From: Bradyrhizobium sp. Ash2021
GTDB lineage: Bacteria > Pseudomonadota > Alphaproteobacteria > Rhizobiales > Xanthobacteraceae
Assembly: GCF_031202265.1 (NCBI RefSeq)
Contig: NZ_CP100604.1
Location: 2,152,501 to 2,216,500 of the forward strand
Direction: 5' to 3'
Length of the DNA: 64,000 bases
The position numbers and the translations under genes are program-made. A model generated the notes under the pieces. The model was given only the letters and a program-made list of their open reading frames with translations. It made no database searches and was not told where the DNA came from. Shown piece after piece: positions 22,333 through 26,746 of this stretch; within the stretch, counting starts at the first letter, position 1, and every line of letters begins with the position of its first letter.

Positions 22333-22452
22333 CGTCATTCCGGGGCGCCGCGCAACGGCGAGCTATGATGTGCAATTGCACATCAGAGAATCCGTAACCA
22401 CGATCGGGAGCGTGGATTCCAGACAGCCGCTTGCGCGGCTTCCGGAATGACG
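22333..22452. repeat. Palindromic dispersed repeat, family B variant
   Basis: CGTCATTCCGGGGCGCCGCG to GCGGCTTCCGGAATGACG, with an internal GATGTGCAATTGCACATC palindrome. It ends 4 nt before the stop of the zinc-ribbon gene and marks the left border of the AT-richer island. Confidence 0.82.
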
Positions 22453-22456
22453 CACT

Positions 22457-22735
22457 TCAGATCCCGTCAGCGGACAAAAACTCCAACGCCTTTTCGCGGG
22501 TCGGGAAACGCCCAAGTTCGCGGTAGTCGGGATCGTGCTCCGCCGTCTCGGGCGACCAAAGCACGATGAACTCATTGCCTTCCTGCTCGATCAGTGTGGT
22601 CAGTTCCTCGCTATTGTACGGCGTCATGTCCCGTCTACCACAATGCGGGCACTCGTCGTCGCACATACAGGACCATTCATCGGTCCATCGGCGCTTGCAT
22701 CGATCGCATTTGTAGAAGTTGAGAAACCAGGCCAT
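22457..22735 (-). CDS. Zinc-ribbon protein downstream of the DpnI-like gene
   Basis: 92 residues. Cysteines occur as CDRC (9-12 area), CMCDDECPHC (23-33 area), enough for one or two zinc sites, followed by an alpha/beta C-terminal part (EFIVLWSPETAEHDPDYREL, TREKALEFLSA). It starts 9 nt after the DpnI-like stop, so it is probably co-transcribed. I do not recognise the family; nucleic-acid or protein binding is a guess from the ribbon. Confidence 0.75.
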   Translation of the reverse strand: MAWFLNFYKCDRCKRRWTDEWSCMCDDECPHCGRRDMTPYNSEELTTLIEQEGNEFIVLWSPETAEHDPDYRELGRFPTREKALEFLSADGI

Positions 22736-22744
22736 GCAGGTCTC

Positions 22745-23512
22745 CTAGGTTCGTAAACGATAACTTCCTCGCGAAATGAAATCAATAAATCCGCGGTCAC
22801 GCAAATATTGAAGTTGCTGACGTATCTTCGGTTTGACGTTCTGGTTGCCGGGATAGAGGTCACCCAGATGCCGCTCGAAGGCATAGACTTCTTCAAGCGT
22901 GAAATCGCGTTTCCCGAGCGACTCCACGCATTTCATAACATCGAGCAGCCAGCCGCGTGTCTCCGGCGATTCATTTCTGAGGAAAAGCGTTTTCTGCCAT
23001 TCGGCGAGAACGAGGTCTTTCTCGCGGACGATACCCTTCTGTACGATATGAATCTTGCCGGACTCAGGTACCCGGCTGAGCAGTATATTGGAGCCGATCC
23101 AGCCCGCGCGCCGCGCAGTAGCCTTTAGCGGCTTTCGTTCCTCGATGATCTCGCGGACGAAAAAATGCTTCGGTACAATGAAGAGATTGACGACCGCGAG
23201 TGACTTCAGATCGTAGTTCATCAGTAAAAGGTTTGGATTGTTGCTGGCAGCCAGGCGCTCGCATTTCGTCTTGAATGCGCCATCGACAACCCTGCTGCCG
23301 AACTTGCCCTTTTGGCTTTTGAGCTCGAACTCCTCGCGGCAGGAGGTGCAGAAGAAATCAGCGAGCGGGCTGTTGTTTGGAAACGAAGAAATCCTGGCGT
23401 TGCCGCAGTGCGGACAATACGCCCACGCGCTGACCCAGGCTTCGGTCCATGTGCGGGCGTTCTGCGCACCGCTGGAATAGGACGACTGGGATTCTTCAAA
23501 GCCGAGTTTCAT
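22745..23512 (-). CDS. DpnI-family restriction endonuclease (methyl-directed, GATC type)
   Basis: 255 residues from ATG 23512 (MKLGFEESQSSYSSGAQNAR); Streptococcus DpnI has 254. The PD-(D/E)XK site is Asp52 (LADFF), Glu63 and Lys65 (FELKS), matching DpnI D53/E64/K66. The zinc ribbon is C33/C36/C55/C58. KPLKATARRAGWIGSNI (127-143) and the C-terminal winged-helix ending KIRQQLQYLRDRGFIDF are also characteristic. DpnI cuts G(m6A)TC, so it needs no cognate methylase; none is seen here. Alphaproteobacteria normally methylate GANTC with CcrM, so this enzyme would target DNA from Dam-positive sources. Cleavage specificity here is inferred. Confidence 0.93.
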   Translation of the reverse strand: MKLGFEESQSSYSSGAQNARTWTEAWVSAWAYCPHCGNARISSFPNNSPLADFFCTSCREEFELKSQKGKFGSRVVDGAFKTKCERLAASNNPNLLLMNYDLKSLAVVNLFIVPKHFFVREIIEERKPLKATARRAGWIGSNILLSRVPESGKIHIVQKGIVREKDLVLAEWQKTLFLRNESPETRGWLLDVMKCVESLGKRDFTLEEVYAFERHLGDLYPGNQNVKPKIRQQLQYLRDRGFIDFISRGSYRLRT

Positions 23513-23608
23513 GGCGCCAGCGTAGCCGAATTCTATTGAATTGCCAGCGTCACCGGACCGGCTTGCGCTTCTTGCACCCGTCCCAATCTCTTGGTGCACC
23601 CGCGAGTG

Positions 23609-24211
23609 TTAGTGGCAACTCGGACGATGGTCAAAATAGGTGGCTCGAAGATATTCGTTCTTAATGCATCCTCTGCAACGACCGCAAGGATAGTCTGCCG
23701 CGAAACAGGAAAAGGTCATGTCTAGCAGGTCCCCATCAATATTTGATTTGAGCAACAGATCAATTGATTCGAGGGTGACCGCGGGTGCTACCAGTGTTGC
23801 GCTGCCTTCCTGCATCAAGAGAACCGATCTCATCTTTTCGACGAACTCAGAAGTGCCGTCGCGGTGCGATGCGTCTCCTTTGGCAGTTCCGATTGAGATT
23901 ACCAAGCTGTCTTGATCCGCAAACTTCATAGCTGCGAGCGTCACCAGCATTTGGTTGCGATACGGCCAGAATTCCGGGATCGTAGCTTGAGGGATTTTAG
24001 GGCGATCGGCTAGTTGACCGCTTCCCAAATTCGACAAGCCCACCGTCAATGTTTCATGATGCAGACCTAGGTAATCAGCGATATTTCTTGCGGCAGCGAT
24101 CTCGCTTCTCGCAATAACTTGCCCATAGTCAACGGTCAAACAAACGTCTGGTCTTCGCATAAAAGCCAAGCATGTGGACTCGATGCCACCAGAGAACAGA
24201 AGGACTTCCAT
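23609..24211 (-). CDS. QueC-like PP-loop enzyme (7-cyano-7-deazaguanine synthase family)
   Basis: 200 residues from ATG 24211, which overlaps the TAA of the upstream fusion gene by one base (TAATG). The PP-loop SGGIEST is at 7-13 (canonical QueC has SGGxDS), DYGQ at 28-31, PYRNQMLV at 83-90, and the zinc set C169/C176/C179/C182. QueC makes preQ0 from CDG with ATP and ammonia. Here the usual substrate-binding region is altered (SHRDGTSEF) and no queD/E/F is nearby, so it probably serves the neighbouring enzymes and not tRNA queuosine. The gene is AT-rich relative to the chromosome. Confidence 0.88.
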   Translation of the reverse strand: MEVLLFSGGIESTCLAFMRRPDVCLTVDYGQVIARSEIAAARNIADYLGLHHETLTVGLSNLGSGQLADRPKIPQATIPEFWPYRNQMLVTLAAMKFADQDSLVISIGTAKGDASHRDGTSEFVEKMRSVLLMQEGSATLVAPAVTLESIDLLLKSNIDGDLLDMTFSCFAADYPCGRCRGCIKNEYLRATYFDHRPSCH

Positions 24212-24605
24212 TACATACCTGCCCAAACCGCATTATAAACTGCAGAACAGAAATCCTCGCTGTAGATGCATCTGCTGCCAATTATCATGGTCAAGTGCTC
24301 TACCTTGACGCCTTCGCCGTGCGCAACGACAGGAATGTTGCGGGCGCGAGCATAACCAACTTCAAATATTGTGCCCGGATCTAAGTCGGTAACGAGCGCC
24401 AGAACTACCGAGCATTGTTCGAGGCCTTGGAGGTCTTGCGTCGCAATCGTTTCGACGGGAAGATCAAAGCCGACCTCATGCATGGGGGAGAATACTTTTG
24501 CGCCCAAACCCAAAAGAGCGGTCCGCGTTTGTTCAATAAAAAATTTTTGGGCTAACGAGAAAAACGGTCCGGCCAAATACACATGCGGTCTACGTTGGAA
24601 TTTAA

Positions 24606-25539
24606 GAGTCTGTCCGGGATCATGCTGTTTTTTGACAGAGCTTTCTGAGCATGAGGCGGATTGAGGCAAGGCGCAAGAACGCCAAGGCCTTTCGGTTGAG
24701 ACACTCCCAATCCTTGGCCAAGCGGCGGCAGCGATTGAGCCAGGCGATGGTGCGCTCGACGATCCATCGCTTGGGCAAGACCGCAAAGCCCTTTGCTGTA
24801 TCGGAACGCTTGACGATTTCCACGTCGATTTGCCGGAGGATTTTGCGAACGGCGGACTGAAAGATCGGCCCCTGGTAGCCGCCGTCGGCATAGAGCTTCA
24901 GCAGGAATGGATGCAGGCCAAACAGAGTGGCCATCACCAACACCCCGCCGTCTCGATCCTGGATGTCCGCCGAATGTACAAGGGCGTGGAGCAATAAGCC
25001 CTGGGTATCGACTAGGATGTGGCGCTTCTTGCCCTTGATCTTCTTTCCCGCATCGTAGCCATGCGGGTCAATCCACGCCCCCCTTTTTCCGCGCTCTTGA
25101 CGCTTTGACTGTCGATGATGGCGGCGCTCGGGCTGGGTTCTCGGTTGGCCAACTCCCGACATTGTACATAGAGCGCGTGATGGATGCGATCGAGCGTGCC
25201 GTCCCAAGTCCACAAGTCAAAATAACCGTGCACCGTGCTGCGCGGCGGCAGATCCTTCGGGATCGCTCGCCATTGGCAACCGCTGCTCAGCACATACATC
25301 AGACCATTGACCACTTCACGCACATCCACCGTGCGCTTGTTGCCGCCTCGCTTGGCTGACGCAATCAGCGGCTCCACAAACGCCCATTCCTCATCGGTCA
25401 AATCGCTGGGATAGCGTAGCCGGCTGCGGTCGTAACGACCGCGGTTCTCTTTCGTCCACATCGGCGCTCCTTCAGATTCGGACCGCCTCCCTTGAATCAC
25501 AAATGATTCCGATGATTCAACATGTTTTCGGACAGACAC
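24606..25539 (-). mobile_element. IS5-family insertion sequence (IS427-group-like), 934 bp
   Basis: Imperfect terminal inverted repeats GAGTCTGTCCGGGATCATG (left) and GTGTCTGTCCGAAAACATG (right), flanked by the 3-bp direct repeat TAA (24603-24605 and 25540-25542). It carries a two-frame DDE transposase and has no passenger gene. The intact flanks and perfect repair of the interrupted frame indicate a recent insertion. Confidence 0.93.
24620..25461 (-). CDS. IS5-family transposase, two frames joined by probable -1 frameshift
   Basis: The first frame starts at ATG 25461 (MWTKENRGRYDRSRLRYPSDL) and holds the N-terminal DUF4096-like part and the first Asp (AAIIDSQSVK); it stops at 25012. The second frame holds GAWIDPHGYDAGKKIKGKKR, the second Asp (YADGGYQG) and the Glu motif RWIVERTIAWL..RRLAKDWE, ending at 24620. 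The switch is at the minus-strand run A5G6 (25088-25078), where a -1 slip gives GGAWIDPHGYD. Such slippage is normal in this IS group. The joined product is about 280 residues. Confidence 0.9.
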
Positions 25540-26325
25540 TAAGAGATTGTCCGCTGAATTCACTTAATAGCGATAATGAGTCAATACTCCGAGTGTCACA
25601 GTATAGCGAAGTGCATTTTGATGCGTTTTCAGCCGCCTGCGGAGCGTTCATATTGTCGATGCCCCAAAATTTGGCGAACGATGCTGAGAATATGTCGCCC
25701 GAGCCGATCTTGAAAACCGATTTTGTTGGAAATACTGGAATAGAATGCACGCCGTTCTTATCAATTACGGTGCAGCCAAACGGGCCTCGCTTGACTACTA
25801 CACAGCATACAGTTCCTTCGTGGACATTTGCTTCGGCTATCTTTTCAGGAGCCTCGGAACCGAAAATCAATTCGAGCTCTCGTTGATTGAGAACGAGAGC
25901 AATTTCCTTTGCGTGGATAAAATCTCGAGGGGATTTGCAGCGGGTCTCTGATTGCGGATCAAAAATTGCGCGTCTAGCGCTTATTGCGGGTAGTCCCTCC
26001 AGCATTCCGTAAGCAAGGACGACGTCGCCCGATATGGGTTCTGCAGCATCTGCCACTTCAGGATTGGGAGCGAGAGTCGGCTCCGATAATGGGTGCAAAT
26101 ATGCAAATTCGTACAAGGCGGCCGAAGGCCGAACTTCGATTTCAACACCATAGGGAGCCAGAGTAGCTTGCGCAGACTTCTTCGACTTTTCGGGAAGACA
26201 CGTAAACAGTTTTACGTCCTCGACGCCCAATCGAGTTAATGCGGCGGCACCTCTTCCTCCAGAGCCGAATATTTGATTCCAATCTGGTTGGTAACAGTAC
26301 TCCGAGTACACCCCGCCAACGACAA

Positions 26326-26694
26326 TCATTTGCGAGCAACTAAAACTTTGACGCTGGTTGCGGACAAGTTCAGAACTGTCGCTTGGTATTCAAAGCCCTC
26401 GTTAATACAATCAATCAGCTCTTCAACGTCAGCGTAGGCTATCGTACCGACGTAAGCTCGGCCGGTTGGTATGACTGCGATTACTGAGTCCGTACCGCGT
26501 GATCGGCGAACTGCGACATCCAAAACTGAACCGACTGATATCTTTTTTATGTTGGCAGGATCGGTGGCTGAAAGGGGAATCTGAAGTTTGATATTGCATC
26601 GATCCCCTCCCGCCGCGTCCCCTCCACCGCGAGTTTGTTTCTTAGGAACGAACGTTCCGCCTCCACCGCCGCCGCCGCCACTTCCTCCTGACAT
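26326..26694 (-). CDS. Glycine-tailed small beta-rich protein, possibly HIRAN-like; first gene of the island operon
   Basis: 122 residues from ATG 26694 (MSGGSGG), with GGGGGAG 6 nt upstream. The N-terminus is a Gly/Lys-rich disordered tail (to about 32). The rest is beta-rich: VGSVLDVAVRR, DSVIAVIPTGRAYVGTIAYADVEELIDCINEGFEYQATV, KVLVARK. The pattern (beta strands, a small G-x-x-V-G-x-I turn, a helix, then a Y-x-A-x-V strand) is reminiscent of HIRAN domains, which bind DNA ends, but I cannot confirm that by eye. Its stop overlaps the PfkB start by 4 nt (ATGA). Function unknown. Confidence 0.7.
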   Translation of the reverse strand: MSGGSGGGGGGGGTFVPKKQTRGGGDAAGGDRCNIKLQIPLSATDPANIKKISVGSVLDVAVRRSRGTDSVIAVIPTGRAYVGTIAYADVEELIDCINEGFEYQATVLNLSATSVKVLVARK

Positions 26695-26716
26695 GCTCTC
26701 CCCCAAGCCTTACACC

Positions 26717-26746
26717 ATTATTGAGCGCACGCTAAAAGATTTGCAA
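26717..26746 (-). promoter_or_regulatory. Candidate promoter of the island operon
   Basis: On the minus strand TTGCAA (26746-26741), 18 nt, AATAAT (26722-26717) lies about 23 nt before the start at 26694. It sits in the short AT-rich gap between uvrB and the island. Confidence 0.35.

Follow-up and report, generated by a model that had tools for sequence, protein, structure and literature searches.

A conserved QueC-like, PfkB-deoxyribosyltransferase and glycine-tailed protein module, interrupted in Bradyrhizobium sp. Ash2021, as a candidate system for tagging a protein with a base

What might a QueC-like enzyme, a kinase-deoxyribosyltransferase fusion and a small glycine-tailed protein be doing side by side? 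The question is raised by a stretch of 64,000 nucleotides from Bradyrhizobium sp. Ash2021 (contig NZ_CP100604.1, positions 2,152,501 to 2,216,500; here, the window), in which three minus-strand genes encode a small tail protein of 122 residues, a PfkB-family kinase fused to a nucleoside 2-deoxyribosyltransferase (PfkB-NDT), and a PP-loop enzyme of the QueC family. An original prediction held that this trio may build, attach, or activate a modified base or nucleotide, either to mark DNA or as a signal. Having compared the locus with its relatives, we think it probable, on balance, that the trio represents a mobile, likely antiviral module whose function is to attach a base to a protein.

The trio is a conserved and widespread module, not a chance association. 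A profile scan of species genomes detected at least 238 stretches encoding QueC-like relatives; we used the 80 best, together with the 5 best (40 to 50% identical) of 55 stretches from a scan of viral contigs (IMG/VR). Four of these 85 loci had less than 1.5 kb of upstream sequence and were excluded, leaving 81, with some near-duplicates among the loci. PfkB-NDT and the small tail protein were encoded upstream of the QueC-like gene as open reading frames (ORFs) at 77 of the 81 loci and were detected by tblastn at the other four (at two the gap is longer, at one the NDT frame is broken, and one contains undetermined bases), so that the predicted set recurs at every locus with at least 1.5 kb upstream. 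At L053 and L057, PfkB-NDT and the QueC-like gene are about 1.3 kb apart. The enzyme family is the one designated PF06508 Cluster 4 by Libby et al. 2026 (YGQ(x)6E and CxxCxGCxK motifs), and the available text of that study reports a PfkB-NDT neighbor in ~89% of cases and, in July 2026, proposes a role in purine salvage (PMC13329287). The claim that no system of this composition had been characterized still holds, although the QueC/PfkB-NDT pair was already in print there.

A fourth gene, not part of the original prediction, commonly accompanies the trio. Clustering of 692 flanking ORFs around the 77 loci placed an OGG-type glycosylase near the trio at 66 loci, or 68 when tblastn matches were added, compared with none of 20 canonical-queC control loci from the same genomes. 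Two main layouts were seen: in one, OGG lies directly upstream and is co-oriented with the trio; in the other, OGG and a methylase are convergent downstream. Other neighbors included a D12 adenine methylase (29 loci), a nitroreductase-like protein (17 loci), a dGTPase (13 loci, within five ORFs), and a second PfkB-NDT (7 loci). One helix-turn-helix (HTH) family was found at six loci and another at four, and others may be scattered; HTH co-occurrence with Cluster 4 is named in the available text of PMC13329287. Pairwise distances among QueC-like enzymes were correlated with those among small tail proteins (r = 0.74), PfkB-NDT (r = 0.83), and OGG (r = 0.87), and none of 2000 permutations reached these values, to which the hosts' shared ancestry contributes.

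The small tail protein has a disordered tail and a folded core. With the starts that we chose, 74 of the 77 proteins begin with M-[S/G/A/T/C]-G; under an unbiased nearest-ATG rule, G3 is present in 67/73 and S, G, A, or T occupies position 2 in 69/73. The start M[SGATC]G[GSTN] occurs in 66/77 tail proteins, a figure that the choice of start favors, compared with 1/320 control ORFs and 2/620 module neighbors. Judged by its fold, the core is HIRAN-like, and the earlier suggestion to this effect for the 122-residue protein is borne out by structure, with 6 to 13% sequence identity to the HIRAN domains of HLTF and Rad5. The HIRAN fold binds DNA in HLTF. Two cysteines, C33 and C96 (window numbering), are invariant in 78 aligned tail proteins, where they might form a metal site or a disulfide; relative to HLTF and Rad5, they are particular to the tail family.

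Tails of this kind are known from partners of other QueC-family enzymes. According to the available text of PMC13279940, the CD-NTase partner of Cap9 starts with the motif MGGS and receives 7-carboxy-7-deazaguanine (CDG) on its N-terminal Gly (Cap9 paper, PMC11996544, likewise available in part), and QatB requires an MGTS start for defense; QatC, too, is considered a likely modifier of its partner's N terminus. Among our loci, L227 and L232 carry Cap9-like genes. The L227 CD-NTase has the start MGGSGGGSY after the first Met, and the start of the L232 CD-NTase, MGGSGGGFFS, equals the first ten residues of the small tail protein at L064; we take L227 and L232 for type IV CBASS. A further operon at L228, L229, L233, and L234 contains QueC, OGG, a TGT-like gene, and a tail protein with a ThsB-like TIR core, which starts with MGGGSSGS (L229, L233, and L234) or MGGGSGGG (L228). 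In L229, QueC scores 142 bits, OGG 86 bits, and the TGT-like part, which is fused to TIR, 25 bits, just below the cutoff of 26. PfkB is encoded at three of these four loci, and its NDT part looks decayed, with no Pfam match in L229. This operon looks like a Thoeris/CBASS-like system using the same tail chemistry; in L229 it also includes an SLATT 2TM gene. We regard the recurrence of the same kind of tail on four unrelated cores beside QueC-family enzymes as the best pointer to the tail being what the enzyme acts on. Because such tails begin the partners of Cap9 and QatC, we consider it most likely, by analogy, that the QueC-like enzyme attaches a deazaguanine-like base to the N terminus of the HIRAN-like protein. 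The match also makes a tagged protein the likeliest product: of what was originally proposed for the trio, attachment of a modified base stands as the likeliest activity, and a DNA mark or a free signal is less likely.

The enzyme itself is consistent with such a role. The QueC-like proteins are 200 aa here and 192 to 213 aa in the 77 relatives, and the family aligns over nearly its full length with Cap9 (9nto) and QueC (2pg3 and 3bl5). Residues were counted in the 77 relatives, in 120 Cap9-type proteins (the 120 listed of 1091 matches), and in 20 canonical QueC proteins, these being the 20 of 31 loci that passed a filter for the SGGxDS, RN, and Cys motifs, features that they carry by construction. 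S7, G8, G9, S12, R85, N86, and the four Cys are kept in 77/77 relatives, as is the base-reading Asp of Cap9/QueC; the PP-loop, RN, Q31/E37, and four Cys are common to the Cluster-4 type, Cap9, and canonical QueC. A loop Gly is shared with Cap9 (77/77 relatives and 118/120 Cap9-type proteins), in contrast to the Ser found there in 19/20 canonical QueC proteins. The Cys after the stacking position is Gly in 76/77 relatives, and the window protein failed the QueC equivalog test (65.9 bits against a cutoff of 150.3). The original prediction correctly gave this protein all four zinc cysteines and an SGGIEST loop; the loop, however, was dismissed as a defining change, since the fifth PP-loop residue is Asp (SGGxDS) in 70/77 relatives and Glu (SGGxES), as in the window, in only 7/77.

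In the mechanism that we propose, the first step is the best supported, from homology. Removal of Met would expose Ser-Gly or Gly-Gly at the flexible tail end; the QueC-like enzyme, with ATP, would adenylate the carboxylate of a guanine-like base (CDG or a relative); and the activated base would be joined to the N-terminal amine, as Cap9 does on the type IV CBASS nucleotidyltransferase. The later steps are weaker. NDT may add deoxyribose to the tethered base or remove it, as Cap10 may do in CBASS, and PfkB may phosphorylate that sugar. The HIRAN-like core might then carry the tagged tail onto the DNA of a phage, which would be the site of action of the OGG-type glycosylase and, at many loci, of the adenine methylase. 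The enzymes in question retain their motifs: the GSGD-type PfkB motif is present in 77/77 relatives, the catalytic Glu of the NDT motif GTxxExG in 76/77 (GTIFEVG in the window; missing in L051), the Lys/Asp motif in 65/66 OGG proteins, and DPPY in 29/29 D12 adenine methylases. The best alignments of NDT are to 6evs and other 2-deoxyribosyltransferases. By analogy with the TGT-like Cap10, the tethered base is the suggested target of PfkB-NDT and OGG, and we infer that NDT, PfkB, and OGG would act on the protein tag. Type IV CBASS may share the OGG gene, but we make no such claim here, since a 214-aa gene at L227 is HhH-like by eye and has no Pfam match, and three module OGG proteins match no PADLOC model.

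Several observations weigh against this reading. Residue 2 of the tail is Ser in 55/77 proteins and Gly in only 11/77, and the Cap9 and QatC partners carry Gly2 (PMC13279940, in its available text). The stacking Tyr found in all Cap9-type and canonical QueC proteins is His in 74/77 relatives. HIRAN was not among the 25 shown of 28 weak Pfam families for the tail protein (78 members). The OGG gene is absent from the window and from 9/77 loci, including L004, the closest named relative. The base-protein conjugate and phage protection are both predictions from sequence. Finally, of the 50 module-bearing genomes searched, eight encode neither QueD nor canonical QueC and give no QueE match above 24 bits (G152, G158, G161, G162, G166, G172, G173, and G184; partly isolates, partly metagenome assemblies). 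The QueE result serves as support only, since the search can overlook genes, as in G165, where canonical QueC and QueD are present and QueE gave no match. Barring undetected genes, the base in these eight genomes cannot be CDG of the cell's own making, and a different base, import, or supply by a phage would be needed; CDG from the host was therefore not upheld as a sure substrate. Across the 50 genomes, canonical QueC is present in 34 and QueD in 42. Where present, QueD lies on another contig or more than 10 kb from the module (closest in L014, at ~11 kb), which argues that the module is no queuosine operon, a point on which the module idea had been said to depend.

A phage source is the core of one rival explanation, which we consider unlikely. 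A deazaguanine-type base would either be cut out of phage DNA by OGG or be supplied by the phage; the QueC-like enzyme would fix it on the HIRAN-like protein, which then acts, and the module would recognize phages with 7-deazaguanine DNA. Such a scheme accounts for both the OGG partner and the module genomes without a CDG pathway. As far as the available texts describe, phages with 7-deazaguanine DNA exist (PMC6884629) and the base-excising DNA glycosylases Brig1-3 defend bacteria against phage (PMC13160076). A distant QueC-like protein is encoded in 120 phage records, all below 60% identity and ten listed below 30%; matches this distant give no sign of the module in named phages, and the module is present in the five IMG/VR viral contigs. 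Against a dependence on phage stand the 34 genomes with their own canonical QueC, an OGG type whose action on deazaguanines is hypothetical, and the same gaps in OGG occurrence noted above.

The published alternative, salvage of purines or deazapurines, supposes that a small modified nucleotide is produced or recycled by PfkB-NDT together with the QueC-like enzyme, the small protein being an accessory or regulator. It is the reading of Cluster 4 published in PMC13329287, and NDT and PfkB are nucleoside and sugar enzymes by family; even so, we judge it improbable, for it accounts neither for the OGG gene nor for the constant tail protein, nor for the ten-residue identity between the L064 tail and a CBASS tail. 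The distribution of the module also speaks against salvage. Of 149 relatives, counting the own genome, only 14 gave any match to the QueC-like protein, and 8 of the 14 matches were weak (25 to 30% identical). Within the genus, Cluster-4-like matches were confined to G016, G041, G053, and G083 (36 to 52% identical); OGG accompanies the module in G016, G041, and G083, and the stretches fetched around all four copies contained no uvrB. Relatives lie on plasmids and among defense genes. The QueC-like gene matched 77 plasmid records, 33 of them conjugative, with distant relatives included, and a conjugative Pseudomonas plasmid carries the full set (trio, nitroreductase, OGG, and methylase). There, NCBI names a PfkB kinase, 7-cyano-7-deazaguanine synthase, nitroreductase, 8-oxoguanine DNA glycosylase, and DNA adenine methylase, and the tail protein is annotated as hypothetical.

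The neighborhood of the module appears defense-like, although the comparison is indicative only. PADLOC models were run (E ≤ 1e-10) against 119 of 130 picked neighbor proteins, after over-long and some duplicate proteins were dropped and 7 near-duplicate loci had been removed beforehand, and against 120 control proteins. The neighbors matched 114 models and the controls 36, counts of models and not of proteins, which supports the suggested enrichment in defense islands in that indicative sense. AriA, PDC-S15, dGTPase, CapP, PtuA, Old, and IetA were among the 25 neighbor models shown, whereas the 25 shown for controls were mostly PD-T4-6; the commonest model matched 5/119 neighbor and 2/120 control proteins. 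On a Moraxella plasmid (L231:6581-8071), the QueC-like gene overlaps with that of a dGTPase, which is annotated as an anti-phage deoxyguanosine triphosphatase. The second PfkB-NDT lies downstream of the first trio at L007, L011, L012, L019, L023, L038, and L084, accompanied in four of these seven loci by a second tail protein. Decayed copies in L225 (G053; interrupted PfkB-NDT and a short QueC-like match), L072 (broken NDT frame), and L051 (NDT motif lost) suggest frequent loss.

The DpnI-type endonuclease gene next to the trio in the window bears on a further explanation, in which a modified base is put into host DNA and policed by OGG, methylase, or DpnI in the manner of restriction. The D12 methylases and their intact motif, the frequent OGG gene, and the adjacent DpnI would fit; we nevertheless regard DNA marking as highly improbable. 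No DNA-inserting enzyme such as a TGT or DpdA was recognized in the largest neighbor clusters, not every one of which was identified, the tail protein would be unexplained, and DpnI is an unrelated neighbor. A DpnI protein search of 100 relatives matched 16: the own genome, 12 same-genus genomes (80 to 91% identity), G052, whose match is split into pieces, and two weak, fragmentary matches. At 13/13 fetched same-genus loci, dpnI lies beside uvrB with the zinc-ribbon gene and the trio is absent, and the QueC-like protein has no match in any of these 13 genomes. Synteny thus ruled out DpnI and the zinc ribbon, considered in the original prediction, as module members and indicates that the trio, with its insertion sequence (IS), was inserted between uvrB and dpnI. 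The dpnI and zinc-ribbon pair downstream of uvrB (window 22457-23512) recurs in the genus, possibly as a small fixed defense site.

The copy in the window agrees with most of what was first described there (Table 1). Coordinates and Pfam matches confirmed the minus-strand trio and its overlaps: the PfkB ORF (26329-25517) shares ATGA with the small tail protein gene, and the NDT end is joined to the QueC-like gene start through TAATG. The 393-residue fusion obtained once the IS is removed is consistent with intact relatives (391 to 417 aa). The block is AT-richer, with a GC content of 0.50 to 0.53 in the trio compared with 0.65 in uvrB and 0.62 in the window, and the palindromic repeat at the boundary is present, though small. 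The IS ends are alike at 17/22 positions and accompanied by a TTA duplication; an earlier scan demanding 13/15 identity had detected no ends. Since the IS lies in the inter-domain linker, the PfkB and NDT domains survive as pieces of a split fusion, and the module copy in Bradyrhizobium sp. Ash2021 is probably inactive. The 9.70-Mb host genome encodes a separate canonical QueC elsewhere (241 bits).

Table 1. Coordinates of the module, its surroundings in the window, and the related TIR operon
Feature	Coordinates	Strand	Description
Small tail protein, 122 aa	26326..26694	-	Gly-rich disordered N-terminal tail MSGGSGGGGGGGG... and HIRAN-like core, residues ~33-122; would be the protein that the QueC-like enzyme modifies
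PfkB kinase half of split PfkB-NDT fusion	25540..26329	-	~263 codons before IS; PF00294, 40 bits; GSGD motif intact
Insertion sequence, IS4/IS5-family domains	24606..25539	-	PF13340 (DUF4096) and PF01609 (DDE_Tnp_1); 934 bp; in PfkB/NDT inter-domain linker
Nucleoside 2-deoxyribosyltransferase (NDT) half	24211..24605	-	PF05014, 56 bits; YLAGPFF, DLQGL, DPGTIFEVGYA; without normal start of its own
QueC-like enzyme, PF06508 Cluster-4 type, 200 aa, intact	23609..24211	-	PF06508, 74 bits; four zinc Cys; SGGIEST loop
DpnI-type endonuclease	22745..23512	-	PF06044, 225 bits; PF17726, 103 bits; uvrB neighbor, outside module
Zinc-ribbon protein	22457..22735	-	dpnI partner, outside module; adjoins dpnI in 13/13 fetched relatives
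Boundary palindrome	22363-22388		13-nt arms, 92%; small
TIR operon (other loci)	L229:4209-9491; L233:2076-6438; L228:5879-8636; L234		

Nucleobase tagging of proteins has so far been linked to two antivirus systems. A wider scheme is conceivable, and we offer it only tentatively: QueC-type enzymes might tag interchangeable Gly-tailed proteins (nucleotidyltransferase, QatB, ThsB-like TIR, and HIRAN) with a guanine-like base, and TGT or NDT/PfkB plus OGG might either take the tag off or convert it to a nucleoside or nucleotide. The base of the HIRAN module would perhaps come from phage DNA, so that the protein bears part of the invading phage and is guided to DNA ends. If true, (i) nucleobase tagging of proteins, far from being peculiar to a single type of CBASS, would be a shared chemistry with exchangeable targets; (ii) a family read as purine salvage would become a testable defense module; (iii) the HIRAN-like protein would gain a role as a base-tagged partner; and (iv) there would be a reason for the clustering of NDT, PfkB, and OGG with QueC-like genes.

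How does the module compare with known systems? Canonical QueC has the fold, PP-loop, and zinc site in common with the module enzyme and differs in its YPDC motif, replaced by HxDG in the module enzyme; YxDC occurs in 0/77 relatives. Type IV CBASS likewise has a QueC-family enzyme (Cap9) with PP-loop, RN, Asp, and four Cys, and a partner with the same kind of Gly tail. Its base-exchange-type second enzyme is a TGT (Cap10), whereas that of the module is NDT; its partner core is a nucleotidyltransferase and not HIRAN-like; and the base pocket of Cap9 has Tyr and Cys where the module enzyme has His and Gly. No CD-NTase (SMODS) was found in the eight window proteins scanned or recognized in the largest neighbor clusters of the 77 loci. 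The qatABCD system, as described in the available text of PMC13279940, also pairs a QueC-family enzyme with a partner that combines a disordered tail, a conserved start (MGTS in QatB), and a folded core. QatC, in contrast to the short module enzyme, has long N- and C-terminal extensions and a Thr/Thr base pocket, and the QatB core is helical. Neither QatA (KAP ATPase) nor QatD (TatD) was found in the scanned window proteins or recognized in the largest clusters, not every one of which was identified. The terms HIRAN and glycosylase are absent from the main text of PMC13329287, which, in its available part, discusses Cluster 4 without the tail protein. The literature covered, which excludes most subscription papers and bioRxiv, gives no account of the tail protein, the OGG link, tagging, or the four-gene module. 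Set beside these systems, the module is best read as undescribed within that literature and as a third QueC-family protein-tagging system, one with a HIRAN-like target.

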